From Acidobacteriota bacterium (GTDB taxonomy: Bacteria; Acidobacteriota; Terriglobia; Terriglobales; Acidobacteriaceae): a stretch of DNA of 64,000 bases. The position numbers and the translations under genes were made by a program. The stretch spans positions 1 through 64,000 of the forward strand of contig JAKAFB010000006.1 of NCBI GenBank assembly GCA_021818105.1. Direction: 5' to 3'. The notes beneath the pieces were generated by a model, which saw only the letters and a program-made list of their open reading frames with translations, did no database searches and was not told the origin of the DNA. Below are positions 763-39,000 of this stretch, piece after piece (within the stretch, counting starts at the first letter, position 1; every line of letters starts with the position of its first letter).

Positions 763-2181
763 TTAGAAATAACCGATATTCGGGTGGCTTTCTTCGATGG
801 GGATGGGGGAGCCATAGCGGCGGCGGACGAGCCAGAAGGCGGGCAGGCCGAGGAGGATGAGTCCGGTGCCGAGGAGGGAGCCGAGGATGTTGCCGGCGTA
901 GCTCCAGAGAAGGACGGCGACGGCGCAGAGGACGAACAGCGCGGGCAGGAGTGGGTATCCCCAGACGCGGTAGGGGCGGGCGGCGGTAGGCTGGCGTCGA
1001 CGGTAGACGAAGACGGTGGTGGCGGTGAGTGCGTAGAAGAGCCACTCGGCGAAGACGGCAAGCTCAAAGTGCTGCCGGAACTGGCTGAGGAAAAGCAGGA
1101 GGAAAGTGGCGAGCAGGCCCTGGACGACGAGCGAGGTGGAGGGGGACTGGAAGCGCGGGTGGATGTGGCCGAAGCGGGGGAAGAAGAGGCGGTCGCGGGC
1201 GGCGGCGAAGGGGACACGGGCGCCGGACATGATGGTTCCGTTGAGGGTGACGAAGATGCTGAGGGCCATGGCGGCGGCGACGAGTCCTGCGCCTCGGGAT
1301 CCGGCGACGACGGCGAGGGCGGCGACGGCGGGGCGCTCGCTGGCGGCGATATGGACGGCGGGGAGGATGTACTGGATGGCGGCGTTGGTAAGCATGAAGA
1401 GCGCGCTGACGATGAAGAGGCCGCCGATGAGGGCGATGGGGAGGCTGCGCTCGGGGCGGCGGACTTCGCCGGCGACCATGGTGAGGTCATTCCAGCCGTC
1501 GTAGGCCCAGAGGGTGGCGATGAGGGCGAGCATGAATCCGCTGAAGCCGCCGGTGGCGTGGGGGAGCCGGGTGGCGAAGTTGGCCCATGAGCCGGTGGCG
1601 GAGGCGAAGCAGAGGCCCGCGACGATGAGGATGAGTACACCCTTGAGGATGGTGAAGACGAGTTGGAAGTCGGCGGCTTTTTTGATGCCGAGGTAGTTGA
1701 GTCCGGTGATGAGCCAGGTGACGGCGATGGCGAAGAGCTGGGACCAGAGGATTAGGCCACCGGGCGCGGGGCGGTCGAGCCAAGCAAAGGCGGGGAAGAA
1801 CTCAAGGGTGCGGGCGAGGCCGATGGTTACGGCGGCGATGGAGGCGGGCTTGGCGACGGCGAACCAGGTCCACATGTAGAGGAAGGCGGTGGTGTCTCCG
1901 TAGGCGCCGCGGAGGAAGACGTACTCGCCGCCGGCGTAGGGCATCATGGCGCCGAGCTCAGCGTAGGTCATGGCGCCGAAGAGGGAGAGCAGGCCGCCGA
2001 CGATCCAGGCGAGATAGACGAGGGTGGAGGAGCCGGTGTCCTGCATCATTTCGCGAGGGACGAGGAAGATGCCGCTGCCGATGATGGTGCCGACGACGAT
2101 GGCGGTGGCCTGGCTGGCGCCGAGGACGCGGGGCAGGTCGGCGGGGGCCTGATGGGACTGCGCGGGGACGGGAGTGCTCAT
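763..2181 (-). CDS. APC-superfamily amino acid permease
   Basis: A 472-residue integral membrane protein with about 12 hydrophobic segments. It moves amino acids across the cytoplasmic membrane by antiport or proton symport. The helix-1 motif of the APC superfamily is clear near residues 32-40 (GTIIGSGIF), followed by the usual pattern of unwound first helix, second helix with Pro-Tyr-Ala-Gly-Gly (PYAGGEY) and long hydrophobic stretches to the C-terminus. Length and motifs fit the L-amino-acid transporter (LAT/SteT-like) branch. The frame is open further upstream, but the ATG at 2181 (MSTPVPAQ) is preferred; no strong ribosome-binding site precedes it. The start codon lies inside a short repeat that recurs at 2892 and 4005. 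The substrate cannot be told from sequence. Confidence 0.85.
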   Translation of the reverse strand: MSTPVPAQSHQAPADLPRVLGASQATAIVVGTIIGSGIFLVPREMMQDTGSSTLVYLAWIVGGLLSLFGAMTYAELGAMMPYAGGEYVFLRGAYGDTTAFLYMWTWFAVAKPASIAAVTIGLARTLEFFPAFAWLDRPAPGGLILWSQLFAIAVTWLITGLNYLGIKKAADFQLVFTILKGVLILIVAGLCFASATGSWANFATRLPHATGGFSGFMLALIATLWAYDGWNDLTMVAGEVRRPERSLPIALIGGLFIVSALFMLTNAAIQYILPAVHIAASERPAVAALAVVAGSRGAGLVAAAMALSIFVTLNGTIMSGARVPFAAARDRLFFPRFGHIHPRFQSPSTSLVVQGLLATFLLLFLSQFRQHFELAVFAEWLFYALTATTVFVYRRRQPTAARPYRVWGYPLLPALFVLCAVAVLLWSYAGNILGSLLGTGLILLGLPAFWLVRRRYGSPIPIEESHPNIGYF

Positions 2182-4046: not shown

Positions 4047-4415
4047 TCAGGGTAGGTCTGCGTGAATTCCAAGAGCTTCGGCGACGGCACGGAGCCGCAT
4101 ATCGAGAGTCCACAGCAGGGTGGGGGGATTGAGGAAGACAGCTGCAATCAACTGCGCGTCGATCAGGCCAATTCCTCGGGCGTAGAGGGATCGGGCTTCA
4201 ATCATTTGCCTTACCTCGCCGATTTGCGCAGTTTGCACCTGAGGCAGCAAATCCAGATATCCAAGCGTCTTTGTGCGGTCCCGCAGCGACCCCAGGGCCA
4301 GTTCTCCAACGATCAACGGATGGATCACAATCTGCCCGCGCTCAAGCTGTTTTCGCAGTTGCTCATTGTCCGAGCGGAAATGGTCGATCCATACCGAGGT
4401 ATCTGCGAGGATCAC
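4047..4415 (-). CDS. vapC: VapC-type PIN-domain ribonuclease toxin
   Basis: A 122-residue PIN-domain protein that would cleave RNA when released from its antitoxin. The four conserved acidic positions are visible: Asp5 (MILADTSVWIDHF), Glu38 (VGELALGS), Asp86 (GIGLIDAQLIAA) and Asp105 (LLWTLDMRL). Length and order are normal for VapC, and the active site looks intact. Its ATG overlaps the vapB stop codon as ATGA (4412-4415), so the two are translationally coupled, antitoxin first. Substrate RNA cannot be predicted. Confidence 0.92.
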   Translation of the reverse strand: MILADTSVWIDHFRSDNEQLRKQLERGQIVIHPLIVGELALGSLRDRTKTLGYLDLLPQVQTAQIGEVRQMIEARSLYARGIGLIDAQLIAAVFLNPPTLLWTLDMRLRAVAEALGIHADLP

Positions 4416-4609
4416 TTTTCGCTCCCCCGTCGCCGTGGAATATCCTCCAGCTCCGGCATTGTGCCGCCCAGCGCCGCCAGCCTGCGGGCGCTTTCCCGCT
4501 CAATGAGAGCTTTCAGCGCTTCCTTGACCAACGCCGTTTTTTCGGCCAAGCCCGTGAACTCCTGAGCAATGCGTATCAGATCGTCATCGAGTGCGAGCGT
4601 TGTTCTCAT
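4412..4609 (-). CDS. vapB: VapB-type antitoxin
   Basis: A 65-residue antitoxin starting MRTTLALDDDLIRIAQEFTG, a ribbon-helix-helix type N-terminus found in the VapB family that pairs with PIN toxins. The C-terminal part (IERESARRLAALGGTMPELE) is the usual toxin-wrapping segment. The start at 4609 was chosen over a longer frame because GGAGAAC lies directly upstream with proper spacing. It is the first gene of the vapBC pair and should repress the promoter at 4627-4646. Confidence 0.9.
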   Translation of the reverse strand: MRTTLALDDDLIRIAQEFTGLAEKTALVKEALKALIERESARRLAALGGTMPELEDIPRRRGSEK

Positions 4610-4620
4610 AAGTTCTCCAT

Positions 4621-4714: not shown

Positions 4715-6694
4715 TTAGTCCACTGGCCGCTCCTGATGGAAGTGCCGCCAGATGGTTTCGGCGGTTTTGCGGGGGACTACGGCGGCGAGGGATTCGGCGG
4801 TGGCTTGCCGGACGTCGCGGAGGCTGCCGAAGTGGGTGATGAGGCGCTGGCGGGTTTGCGGGCCTACGCCGGGGATGTTGAGGAGTTCTGAATCGCGGTC
4901 GCGCATGGCGCGGCGCTGGCGGTGGTAGCCGATGGCGAAGCGGTGGCTTTCGTCGCGGATGAGCTGGACGAGATGCAGCACCGGCGAGCGCCGATCCAGC
5001 ACGACTGGCTCATCTTCATTGCCGTAGAGGTAGATGACTTCCTCTTTTTTGGCGATGGAGGCGAGGGGCTGCGAGGTGAAGCCGAGGGACTCCAGCGCAT
5101 CTGCCGCCGCGTGCAGTTGCCCCAGTCCGCCATCAATCAGCACCAGCGAAGGCATCGGCTGGTTCTCGTCCTTCAGCCGGCGATAGCGCCTCTCCACCAC
5201 CTCGCGCATTGACGCGAAATCGTCCACGCCTTGCACGGTCATGACCTTGAACTTGCGATAGGCGGACTTGTTCATCTTGCCGTCTTCCCAGACGACGAGG
5301 GAGGCAACGGTTTCAGCGCCCTGGATGTGGGAGATGTCGAAGCACTCGATGCGGTGGGGCAGCTCGGGGAGCATGAGGGCGTCGGCGAGGGCCTCCTGAA
5401 TGGCCTTGCGGGAGGGCTCGAGGACGCGGAAGCGCTGGGTGTGGGACTGGCGGGCGTTCTGGCCGGCGAGATCGACGAGGGAACGCTTTTCTCCGCGCTG
5501 GGGAACGGCGAGTTCGACGCGGTGGCCCGTGCGCTCGCTGAGCAAGGCGGCAAGAGTTTCGCGGTCGGCGAAGTCGACGGGCACGAGGATGGAGCGCGGG
5601 ACGTAGTGCTGGTCGATGTAGAGCTGCTTGAGCAGGGCTGAGAAGAATGAGCCGGGGTGGAAGACGGGCTCGACGGGTTGGCTTGACTGGTCTCCCACCC
5701 TTTCTGCGGAACGATGCGGAAAGGATGGGGCACCCGGTTGTGGTTGTGTCATCCCAGGTCTCAGAATCGAGACCTGGGGCACCCGGTCATCCCAGGTCTC
5801 AGAATCGAGATCTGGGGCACCCAGCAGCTCGGGCAGGTCTTCCCAGAAGAACTCGCGGCGGTCAACAATTTTGCCGGAACGCATGTGGAAGAGGTTGACG
5901 GCGAGGGCGCCGTCTTCGAAGTGATATCCGAAGACGTCAGTGTCGTCGCTGAGCTCGGCGGTGGCGATGCGCTGTTTCTCCTGGAGCTGGTGGACAGTGG
6001 AGATCTGGTCGCGGAGGCGGGCGGCGGCCTCGAACTGCTCGGCTTCGGCGGCGGCCATCATGCGCGCGGTGAGGGTGCGCTCGAGCTCGGAATGGCGGCC
6101 CTCAAGGAAGAGCTGCGCATCGCGCACGGCTTGCTTGTAGGCCTCGGGCGTGGTGAGACCTTCGACGCAGGGGCCCAGGCAGCGATGGATGTAGTACTGA
6201 AGGCATGCGCGGGGGTGGTAGCGGGAGAGATCAACCTTGCAACTGGGCAGCAGAAAGCTGCGGTGGATGAGTTCTACAACGCGATAGGCGAGATTGCCGG
6301 GGAAATAAGGGCCGTAGTAGGCGGAGCCGTCCTTGCGCAGGCGGCGGGTGACGAAGACTTTGGGGTAACGGTCGGCGAGGGTGAGCTTGACATAGGGGTA
6401 GGTTTTGTCGTCGCGGAGGAGGATGTTGAAGCGGGGCTTGCGTTGCTTGATGAGGTTGTTCTCTAAGGCGAGAGCCTCGTGCTCGTTGGCAACGAGGATG
6501 TAGTCGAGATCGACGGCCTCGCGCATGAGGGAGCCGGTTTTGGCATTGGCCTGCGAGGCCTCAAGCAGATAGGAACGAACGCGGGCGCGAAGGTTCTTGG
6601 CCTTGCCGACGTAGATGACCTGACCCTCAGCGTTCTTGTAGAGGTAGACGCCGGGCTGGGTGGGCAAGGCACGGATTTTCTCGTGGAGATCCAT
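4715..6694 (-). CDS. uvrC: UvrABC excinuclease subunit C
   Basis: A 659-residue dual-incision nuclease of nucleotide excision repair, which cuts 3' and 5' of DNA lesions marked by UvrA and UvrB. Visible domains are: N-terminal GIY-YIG nuclease (PGVYLYKNAEGQVIYVGKAK, ~14-33), UVR domain for UvrB contact (~200-235), RNase-H-like 5' nuclease (IECFDISHIQG and LVLIDGGLGQL) and C-terminal helix-hairpin-helix (LLNIPGVGPQTRQRLI). The start is placed at MDLHEKIRALP, the family N-terminus, 16 codons into the open frame. Residues ~290-335 are an in-frame insertion coded by palindromic repeats, in the linker before the second nuclease half. The frame stays open and the catalytic parts look intact. Confidence 0.95.
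   Translation of the reverse strand: MDLHEKIRALPTQPGVYLYKNAEGQVIYVGKAKNLRARVRSYLLEASQANAKTGSLMREAVDLDYILVANEHEALALENNLIKQRKPRFNILLRDDKTYPYVKLTLADRYPKVFVTRRLRKDGSAYYGPYFPGNLAYRVVELIHRSFLLPSCKVDLSRYHPRACLQYYIHRCLGPCVEGLTTPEAYKQAVRDAQLFLEGRHSELERTLTARMMAAAEAEQFEAAARLRDQISTVHQLQEKQRIATAELSDDTDVFGYHFEDGALAVNLFHMRSGKIVDRREFFWEDLPELLGAPDLDSETWDDRVPQVSILRPGMTQPQPGAPSFPHRSAERVGDQSSQPVEPVFHPGSFFSALLKQLYIDQHYVPRSILVPVDFADRETLAALLSERTGHRVELAVPQRGEKRSLVDLAGQNARQSHTQRFRVLEPSRKAIQEALADALMLPELPHRIECFDISHIQGAETVASLVVWEDGKMNKSAYRKFKVMTVQGVDDFASMREVVERRYRRLKDENQPMPSLVLIDGGLGQLHAAADALESLGFTSQPLASIAKKEEVIYLYGNEDEPVVLDRRSPVLHLVQLIRDESHRFAIGYHRQRRAMRDRDSELLNIPGVGPQTRQRLITHFGSLRDVRQATAESLAAVVPRKTAETIWRHFHQERPVD
5693..5826. 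repeat. Array of palindromic repeats inserted within uvrC
   Basis: Three hairpin-forming units lie in the uvrC reading frame. Unit 1: tcccaccctttc (5693-5704) pairs with gaaaggatgggg (5719-5730), 10 of 12 positions. Unit 2: cccaggtctc (5753-5762), loop agaatc, gagacctggg (5769-5778), a perfect 10-bp stem. Unit 3: the same at 5791-5816 with one wobble. Units 2 and 3 are 38-bp tandem copies. Every unit is followed by ggggcaccc or a close form. The structure resembles REP-type elements. Confidence 0.85.
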
Positions 6695-6888
6695 GGAGAT
6701 GGGTGCTGTTTCTAGGATAGCGGGTGCAGGCACTTGCGGCATGTGGCAGGAAGGCGGGGCGGCAATCCTTACCGGAAAGGGTAAAAATTACATGGCATTC
6801 GAAGGGGATTGAGTTAGGAGAATAGATGTATCACAATTATATTCAAGTAGATAGAGGAGATGTGTGTTTGGCACGACGCATGCGATAA

Positions 6889-7699: not shown

Positions 7700-7729
7700 C
7701 TTTTCAAAACCCTGATTACGTATACGAAA

Positions 7730-7767
7730 GGCCATCCGGTGAGGAACCGGATGGCCTTATTTTTTTG
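7730..7767 (+). terminator. Rho-independent terminator after the OmpA lipoprotein gene
   Basis: A perfect 11-bp stem, ggccatccggt (7730-7740) with accggatggcc (7746-7756) and a 5-base loop, is followed by TTATTTTTTT. On the other strand the U-tract is short, so it acts mainly on the plus strand. Confidence 0.93.
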
Positions 7768-36036: not shown

Positions 36037-39000
36037 TCCTCAACAGCCCACCAGTCCAGCAGCGCCATGCGTGGATAGTAGAGTCCCGCGTTTAGCCGAG
36101 CAACATCCCCATGCAGGCTGCGCAGAATGCCAGCATAGATGGCAAGCTGAGGTGCGAAGAGTTTTCGTAGAGTAAGCAGGGCTTCTGCGGTCGACATATT
36201 CTCGGCATATGCGGTCTTGTAGTCGATAATCCACCAGGTATTGTCCCCCTCAATCAGTGGCGCGGCTCCTGCGCGGAAGACGCGGTCGGCGCGCACCGAG
36301 TGCAAGGCGCCCGCAATGAGTCCAGTCCATGCCACTTCCTGCTCAGCGTAGATGTGCGGTGAAAGAATCCATTGGCCGAGCGCATCCTCAGTGGCGCTGA
36401 GCGCGCATGCAAACGCACTTTCCGCGATCTGCGCTGCCACTGAATGAGGAAAGCCTACAGCCCGTATATTTGCGATGGTGCGCGTCTTTATCAGTAGCAA
36501 TGAGGCACGGGTTGCATCCCAGTCATGATGCTTCCGCAAACGCGCAGTTTCTTCAAGCAACTTGTGTGTGGCGCTACCTAGAACTCGTGAGATCAGGCCG
36601 CCGTGATGCCGCTCGTATAGCTGCATCGCCGCGCCGACATCGCGCGCGCGTGGTGCTTCATAGTGAAGCGAGGCAGGAGTAAAATCTGCCGGCAGACGAT
36701 ATACGATGTTGGGCCTTGCTGGAGCCGGCATGCTGATCAAGTTGTCTTCACTTGCTGCGAGTGTTTCGACCTCATATGCGGGAGCGTCTTTCCCATCGGA
36801 CCTTGAGTTCTTCCAGTCTTCAAACTGCCTCTGCACCTCGCCTTGAAGAGCCGGCCATGCAGTTGCAAGAAGCGAGTTGCTCGGTTCAACAAGCTGAACC
36901 GAGCCATCAGCCTGCCGATATGAAGGACGCATGAAGAGGTGAAGCTCATCCCGCGCTCGTGTTGCTGCCACGTACAGGATACGTCGCATTTCCTGCCTTT
37001 CGCGCTCACGATAAACACGGTCGACCCACTTTTTTGCATTGCCTCGATCTTCGCGCTTGGGCTGGATTGGCGCGATGAGAAATTCGGTGATGTCGTGTGA
37101 ATTCTCGGCTTTCTCCACCCCACGCTCTAGCCACGAAAGGAGTTTCATAGAATGTTGGTGGTTTTTTGCTTGCAAATCCGGCACGATCACGACTTCAAAT
37201 TCAAGGCCCTTCGACTTGTGGATGGTCATCAGCTGCACGCCGCAGGCAGTGCTGGCAGCGGGGTCAGGCTGTGCCGTCAATTTCTCAAGAGCGAGGTCAA
37301 GCACCGGGCCAAGGAAGTCGGCCTCGCGCGCAGGTAGAGCATCAAGGCTTTGCCAAAGCAGTTCAAGATTGGCACGCCCTGTTGCATCAACGCAATGCGC
37401 GCCACCAAGTTGCATCCATGCCTGCTCGAGCCAGGTTCCAAGTGTGGCGGTGGGCAGAGAAGAATGCAGACGGGGTATGGAGTCGAGTGCGCTTAATAAG
37501 CGAGTAATGCTTGAACGGCCTTCGTCGCTAAGCAGTGGAACACGTTCACGCAGGAGATTCGTGATAGGAGTGAGGAGCATACGAGGATCGTCTGCACTCG
37601 TTAGCAGATGCAGATCCGCGAGACTAAGTCCGCACCATGGAGCGCGTAGTACACCGAGCCATGCAACACGATCATGTGCATTCAACAAGGCGCGGCCCAA
37701 AGCAAGGGCATCCTGGACTTCCATTCTGTCGCGTAGCTTTTCAAGCTCAACGGCGCGGAAAGGTATTGCTGCCTCGCGCAGTGCCTTGGCAATGGGCACT
37801 AGCGAGGCACGGGTGCGACCCAGCACGGCAATGCGATAAGTGCGCTGCTCTGCACTCGCTTGATCCACATTCTCCATGTGGCTCTGAATCAAGTCGACGA
37901 TGCGGCATGTCTGTGCATGCAGTGACGACTCTCGCTCCCGTGCGGCTGATATTCGGTCTGCCGGTGAGGCTCCTCGACCGTTTGTAACAGGCATGAAATC
38001 TGCATGCACGGATAAGAATGGAGAAGCAGAGGGAGACTGCTTTCGAACTGCTTCCGCGCGTGTGAAAGTAAGACCGCTCCCATCATCTGATGCAAAGATG
38101 CGGGTAAAAAATTCGTTAAGTCTGTTGACAAGCGTGGGATCGCTGCGGAAGTTTGCTGTAAGTGAAATTGGAACAAAAGGGATAGCCGTGCCTTCAGGCA
38201 ATTCGAGGCCAGCTTGTCGCACGCGTGGAAAGAGTTCGGCATCGGCGTCGCGAAAGAAGTAAATAGACTGCATAGGATCGCCGACAACGAAGAGAGTTCG
38301 GCCGACTGAATCAGGCCATGCAGAGGCCAGGCTTGCGAGCAACTGATGCTGGCGCCTGCTTGTGTCCTGAAATTCATCGACGAGCAAATGATGGATGCCG
38401 TCTGCAACATGGATCGCGGCGTCACTGGGCATGCCATCATCTCCACTAAGAATACGATTTGCGATTTGAGCCACCTCAATAAAATCAACAGCTCCAGCTT
38501 CAGCAAAGGCTATATGCAGCTCTGCAACAGCATGGCGCAGTAAGAGGAAGCAAGCCCGCACAATCTCCCATTCGTCATCTGTGTAGTGGGCAGACGGCAA
38601 CTCACGAATAGAAGCAAGTTGGCTTTTGAACCCATCCAGGCGTGAAAGCTCGTCAATCAGGGCTATCAGGCGCGACTTCTGCTCTTTGTTTTCGGCGGGG
38701 AATCCCTGTGCTTTATTGACTTGCTTGCGAAATTCTCCTTCGCGGGTGAGCAGCATTTCGCTCAGGTCGCGCCATGCCTGAAGCTGGGCTTCGAGGTTTA
38801 CGTTGTCAGTGAATTCTAGAGGGCCAAAGTCGTCGATTGTGGCAAGGGATGGGTAGAGCGCCCCATCGCTCTGCATGCAGGCAAACCGCGCCAGAGCCAT
38901 TGCTTCGTGCTTAGCTTTGGGCACTTCATTCAATATGCGGCTTACCGTGCTAAGGCCCACGCGAATGGCTGTGGCAAACGGATGTTCCAGCTGTGAGCGC

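Follow-up and report, generated by a model that had tools for sequence, protein, structure and literature searches.

The uvrC gene in the window (i.e., the whole 64-kb stretch of DNA analyzed here) carries an in-frame array of three palindromic units, which very probably are RAYT-linked REP units that entered a tolerant, disordered loop of UvrC and whose added residues are passive padding. The preliminary description of this DNA, made from its letters, had recognized three such units, including two tandem 38-bp copies, and both observations were reproduced (Table 1). Its statement that the units share an ending holds, since all three hairpins terminate in TGGGGCACCC on the plus strand; by its stem, however, unit 3 is a member of a sister family and not of the 38-bp family. 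The array codes for 44 residues (307 to 350, numbered from the ATG at nt 6742; 291 to 334 if translation starts at M17), in agreement with the approximately 45 residues at about 290 to 335 described earlier. The encoded protein contains the Pfam domains GIY-YIG, UVR, UvrC_RNaseH (two stretches), UvrC_RNaseH_dom, and HHH and scores above the cutoffs for NCBIfam TIGR00194 and PRK14669, the match to the latter beginning at residue 17 (M17, MDLHEK, nt 6694). The gene had been called essential in the preliminary description; uvrC is usually dispensable for viability.

TABLE 1 Coordinates of uvrC, its hairpin units, and its second variable loop in the window
Feature	Positions	Strand	Description
uvrC, excinuclease ABC subunit C	4715..6742	-	675 aa (codons) from the first ATG (nt 6742), longest ORF; probable start M17, nt 6694
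REP unit 1	5791..5822	-	AGGTCTC stem, one stem mismatch; in-frame reading GAPDLDSETWDD
REP unit 2	5753..5784	-	Perfect 10-bp AGGTCTC stem; reading VPQVSILRPGMT, frame differs from that of unit 1
REP unit 3	5694..5735	-	CCTTTC stem family, same TGGGGCACCC end; reading GAPSFPHRSAERVGD
Head-to-tail 38-bp pair, units 2 and 1	5748..5822	.	Tandem Repeats Finder: period 38, 97% match
Second variable UvrC loop	5150..5176	-	Residues 523 to 531; empty here, repeat-filled in some relatives

The TGGGGCACCC sequence occurs 3 times in the window compared with 0.28 expected occurrences, a count reached in none of 100 shuffles; this excess and the genome repeat counts given below rule out a chance origin of the array. 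No Rfam match at gathering thresholds was found in the window, and a generic hairpin pattern (opposite spelling), which is ill-suited to these units, gave no window matches. Two further hairpins in the window have a perfect stem of at least 10 bp and a loop of at most 10. One of them (7728 to 7758), with a 13-bp perfect stem followed by T's, is probably an intrinsic terminator 3' of an OmpA-family gene, and the other (36879 to 36904) has a perfect 10-bp stem without the TGGGGCACCC end. A VapBC toxin-antitoxin pair (PIN and VapB_antitoxin; 4047 to 4612, minus strand) lies directly downstream of uvrC.

Both stem families of the array are dispersed repeats. Searching the window's genome (3.6 Mb in 136 contigs) with the 38-bp pattern led to the identification of 29 copies at up to three mismatches, with none for a reversed-pattern control, and the bare TGGGGCACCC end had 42 genome matches versus 6 for its control. 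The unit is therefore, as expected of a REP element, a short palindrome found at many dispersed sites of a single genome. When the 29 copies are compared, their consensus is sharp between the base preceding CCCAGGTCTC and the end of GCACCC, two loop positions excepted, and decays on both sides. The unit end is TGGGGCACCC, which on the other strand is seen as a 5' foot, GTGC. The canonical GT[AG]G foot is absent: the consensus does not spell GTGG at this position, and GTAG is found at none of the 29 copies (its complement, CTAC, is found at one, near the tail end). Likewise, CGTC and GACG, which would mark the ends of CGTC REPs or Rickettsia palindromic elements (RPE), are found at none of the 29 copies. 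At up to two mismatches, the 38-bp unit was present in 17 of 396 genomes of the phylum, i.e., in 17 of the 44 genomes searched from the window's family and in none of 352 elsewhere, so that the search of the genome and its relatives proposed in the preliminary description returned a dispersed unit. The CCTTTC stem family of unit 3 was detected in 14 of 41 genomes and has three copies in the window's genome, including that in uvrC (control, 0). Terracidiphilus and Occallatibacter are among the close UvrC relatives, and the relatives' records are from Acidobacteria, many of them Acidobacteriaceae.

A RAYT-type transposase, which had also been proposed as a check, was found. The window's genome has four PF01797 (Y1_Tnp) matches, corresponding to three RAYTs and one IS200 transposase, and the three RAYTs pass NCBIfam NF047646 (REP_Tyr_transpos) with 108.7, 107.9, and 90.6 bits (cutoff, 80). 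The RAYT on C95 (L197:1337-1888) is associated with inverted 38-bp copies at 1362 to 1393 (minus strand), overlapping its 3' end, and at 1961 to 1992 (plus strand), and the RAYT on C103 sits between two units of the CATGTCG (sister) type. Both genes are thus flanked by inverted copies, as is characteristic of REPs. On C5 and C82, decayed remnants of RAYTs are close to additional TGGGGCACCC sites. An alignment by eye on the WQ pair suggests that the C95 RAYT departs from some of the guide-binding residues of the Escherichia coli protein (PMC6006769), which would fit a different foot.

Homologs of the C95 RAYT were detected in 34 of the 44 family genomes, and we examined 31 RAYT loci (the best locus of each of 30 genomes and the C103 locus). 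At 23 of these, a TGGGGCACC hairpin overlapped the RAYT end or lay no more than 300 bp away. At the 30 loci L241 to L270, hairpin density was 2131 per Mb at distances of up to 300 bp from the RAYT versus 119 per Mb farther out, and it was 53 per Mb at 84 control loci of mnmG, hemC, uvrD, and prmC from the window's genus. Outward-facing hairpin pairs were found at 10 of the 30 RAYT loci versus none of these 84 same-genus controls; a first control with 116 loci from four genes (27 to 55 per Mb depending on the gene; no pairs) included another family without the unit. Similarity of the RAYTs was weakly correlated with similarity of the stems (Mantel r = 0.21, p = 0.0045, n = 23). Eight of the 31 loci had no such hairpin; at two of these (L247 and L248), there is a CCCACCC...GGGTGGGG hairpin that lacks the full tail. 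When loci were picked by PF01797 score, irrespective of transposase type, a hairpin was present at only 3 of 30. The presence of a RAYT homolog does not predict that of the 38-bp unit among the 44 genomes (12 of 17 genomes with the unit versus 22 of 27 without it), and an association of unit and RAYT by co-occurrence across genomes was accordingly rejected. Genome G437 has 11 unit copies and no RAYT match.

The UvrC alignment suggested in the preliminary description revealed an insertion-prone linker. This alignment comprised 92 distinct UvrCs, including that of the window (obtained from 110 loci by merging identical frames; a few are incomplete at contig ends). The linker (alignment positions 304 to 358) ranges from 6 to 145 residues (median, 35.5), and a second loop near residue 527 ranges from 0 to 88 residues (median, 9; values of 0 come from fragments). 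The tag GGTGCCCC/GGGGCACC was counted 29 times in the 15.7 kb of both loops versus 4 times in the remaining 170 kb of these genes and is patchy, being present in 18 of the 92 linkers. Stems of at least 9 bp were found in 22 of the 92 linkers versus 12 of 1593 control tiles; four of the 22 (in L092, L161, L163, and L165) are outside the TGGGGCACCC hairpin family. Six repeat motif types were defined by eye (REP peptides, KGxxFS/ALAPE, SAVAF/HPERSA, PALSLSKG, YQGTT, and DQG), with palindromes checked for the REP-peptide type and the KGxxFS type (one sequence inspected), and 34 of the 92 UvrC proteins contain at least one of them. The situation opposite to that of inserted repeats, i.e., the same linker in most relatives and no DNA-level repeats elsewhere in the genome, was not observed.

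Repeat elements appear to nest in one another, since PALSLSKG (L099, L111, and L115) and HPERSA (L091) lie inside REP peptides of UvrC. A CCTTCGACAAGCTCAGG-type repeat, which encodes PALSLSKG, is located inside an arm of the TGGGGCACCC hairpin in L099, L111, and L115 as well as in L036 and L044 of the window's own genome. In the second UvrC loop of L091, a HPERSAAESKDL peptide (HPERSA) is enclosed by a GAPS...ARVGD REP peptide. L100 has this REP peptide without a break, which suggests a nested insertion. DQGSGIRDQG-like repeats in the linkers of L058, L078, L117, L123, and others are possibly a simple tandem DNA repeat and not a palindrome.

An AlphaFold2 model of UvrC (36 sequences) had a mean pLDDT of 75.5 and a pTM of 0.36, so its domain packing is unreliable. 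Residues 308 to 357 are modeled as coil with pLDDT of <50 between a strand (291 to 300) and a helix (363 to 375), inside the UvrC_RNaseH domain of Pfam, and the second loop is placed between a helix (508 to 525) and a strand (533 to 537). Of the two readings offered in the preliminary description, namely, a tolerated protein linker and an element encoding a readable peptide, these data support the former.

Insertion is not confined to uvrC. In the window's genome, the 38-bp unit also lies inside ORFs with the Pfam domains of MnmG, PrmC, UvrD, GcvPB, and HemC, and in-frame insertion was found in all five of these genes as in uvrC. At least 7 of the 29 copies (gene calls covering part of the sites) are intragenic, in genes whose aligned relatives partly lack the insert. 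The alignments of these other genes with relatives were judged by eye. In hemC, the REP peptide is present here only and in none of 29 other aligned sequences. In prmC, several units add 67 residues beyond the commonest short loop; 26 of 28 relatives have short loops, and L362 and L372 have REP-like inserts. REP-like peptides occupy the same loop of mnmG in 5 of 29 relatives, and VPQVSxLRPG is found at the same loop of uvrD in 4 of 29, with similar peptides in others; for both genes, some relatives may share one inherited insertion. The unit in gcvPB is in the opposite orientation. At this loop, G004 (L405) has a CCTTTC unit and L416 and L418 have other inserts; in many relatives the loop is short. 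Copies L024 and L025 are also within ORFs, and copies L017, L018, L021, and L027 are near ORF starts, the true positions of which are uncertain. Two uvrD-like stretches at contig ends (G000:C43:1-1710 and G000:C114:2-1177), with 89% protein identity, represent either a paralogous gene or an assembly that mixes strains.

If the linker peptide were functional, for example in a protein contact, the units would be kept for their protein sequence, and GAP-type peptides do recur in 20 of the 92 UvrC linkers (by a loose motif), as does VPQVSxLRPG in the uvrD loop (counted by eye). We regard this explanation as very improbable. In L087, a close UvrC relative with flanking coding DNA 90% and 89% identical to that of the window, there are also three units, of which the first and third are apparently decayed; the GAP frame is used for all three. 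Unit 2 has identical DNA in the two genes, yet it is read as VPQVSILRPGMT in the window and as GAPGLDSETWET in L087, and the spacings of the units (38 and 49 bp in the window versus 42 and 45 bp in L087, by hand count) both sum to 87. Thus, the frame of UvrC has been kept and the peptide of the unit has not. Across genes, the peptides GAPGLDSETWD, VPQVSPLRPGN or VPQVSNLRPGN, and SQVSESRPGAPG represent three frames over both strands, so that no peptide is conserved. The wide range of linker lengths and the reversed gcvPB copy likewise argue against selection for a peptide, as does the lack of stop avoidance. The 38-bp unit itself is open in five of six frames, and 20 hand-picked hairpins had 5.25 open frames of six versus 4.65 in arm-shuffled palindromes (P = 0.0035). 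In 27 automatically collected clusters, the corresponding values were 5.00 and 4.98 (P = 0.50), and a stop-free design of the element was rejected on this automatic set in preference to the hand-picked one. The readable-peptide alternative of the preliminary description is therefore not sustained.

The stems covary, which could point to a role in DNA or RNA (e.g., protein binding or mRNA structure) for which the repeats are kept and not as parasites. In 50 of the 55 two-mismatch matches listed, the two changes fall on the partners of a single stem pair, and 45 remain Watson-Crick, compared with 3% and 1%, respectively, for random mismatch pairs, so that it is the hairpin structure that is maintained. 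These matches are not independent, since they come from related genomes (at most 10 listed per genome), comprise five kinds of Watson-Crick change, and include one palindrome entered on both strands; constancy of the tail among them proves little, as the search pattern itself fixed the tail. REPs elsewhere are protein-binding sites (PMC2817692). Covariation would be predicted equally by recognition by a transposase, however, and the patchiness of the tag in uvrC and the differences in sites and copy numbers among relatives make a maintained DNA- or RNA-level role highly unlikely. Also very improbable is an origin of the array by local slippage or duplication of hairpin-prone sequence without mobile elements. 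This would suit the two 97% identical head-to-tail copies, but as an account of the entire array it conflicts with the dispersed repeats: the 38-bp unit lies at 27 other genome sites, beside a RAYT and in unrelated genes, and unit 3 is a member of another dispersed family.

We therefore favor insertion of RAYT-linked REP units, for which the following course can be proposed. RAYT (Y1/HUH) transposases would spread short single hairpins with a fixed foot, 5'-GTGC, presumably as single-stranded DNA, and most intragenic insertions would be removed by selection. Insertions could survive in the UvrC segment between the strand at 291 to 300 and the helix at 363 to 375 of the N-terminal RNase H-like domain, because this segment is a disordered loop, if their total length is a multiple of three. 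At least two REP families would have entered the array, in part earlier than the divergence from the closest relative studied. The second 38-bp copy may be a local duplication and not a second insertion. The translated hairpin residues are probably harmless padding. From the anatomy of the loci, we infer movement of the unit by the RAYT, with GTGC as the guide, and UvrC presumably works normally.

More broadly, it seems more likely than not that the Acidobacteriaceae have a REP/RAYT superfamily, distinguished by a GTGC foot, which along with other repeat families has time and again colonized the same few loops of housekeeping and repair proteins (two in UvrC and others in UvrD, MnmG, GcvPB, PrmC, and HemC), sometimes in nested form, making such insertions a main way for these loops to lengthen and diverge in this family. 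Such loops represent a natural experiment in which parasitic hairpins shape proteins, since different elements have entered the same loops, in both orientations and more than one reading frame, and relatives have empty sites. The GTGC foot also suggests a class of REPs with a foot other than GTAG or CGTC and thereby offers a natural variant for testing the rule of guide recognition by RAYTs. For annotation, these elements account for odd variable stretches (e.g., GAPGLDSETW and VPQVSxLRPG) in acidobacterial proteins.

The type of event is already known. In-frame GTAG and CGTC REPs have been described in genes, many of them for DNA repair, including those for excinuclease ABC proteins and UvrD (PMC3733652); uvrC is not named in the main text of that paper, which cites Koribacter in connection with RAYTs that have terminal inverted repeats. 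Feet of the GT[AG]G type have also been reported, as have loops with in-frame REPs and, for RAYT subclass 2.6 and class 3, atypical hairpins (PMC6006769). No description of acidobacterial REPs was found among the matches listed from the open-license PMC literature, and the GTGC/TGGGGCACCC hairpin family and its entry into the same protein loops seem to be undescribed. The elements resemble GTAG or GT[AG]G REPs and their RAYTs (TnpA-REP) in being short hairpins in many copies with a tetranucleotide 5' foot and inverted copies flanking their own RAYT, in the pairing of RAYTs with stem types of their own, and in their in-frame copies in repair genes (PMC3733652 and PMC6006769); they differ in the GTGC foot within the TGGGGCACCC end. 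Unlike a REPIN, which requires an inverted pair, the uvrC units share one orientation and lie head to tail. CGTC REPs and RPE are likewise in-frame palindromes, single or grouped, that add tens of residues (PMC3733652), whereas the present units have no CGTC tag, are RAYT linked, and come from a soil lineage, RPE being set apart by their description. RAYT subclass 2.4 shares in-frame REPs in flexible loops and has REPs in its own coding sequence, and class 3 has been reported from Acidobacteria among others; atypical feet are also known (PMC6006769). Compared by description, the REPs of subclass 2.6 and class 3 are weaker and have no consensus (PMC6006769), whereas those described here form a strong hairpin with a fixed end.
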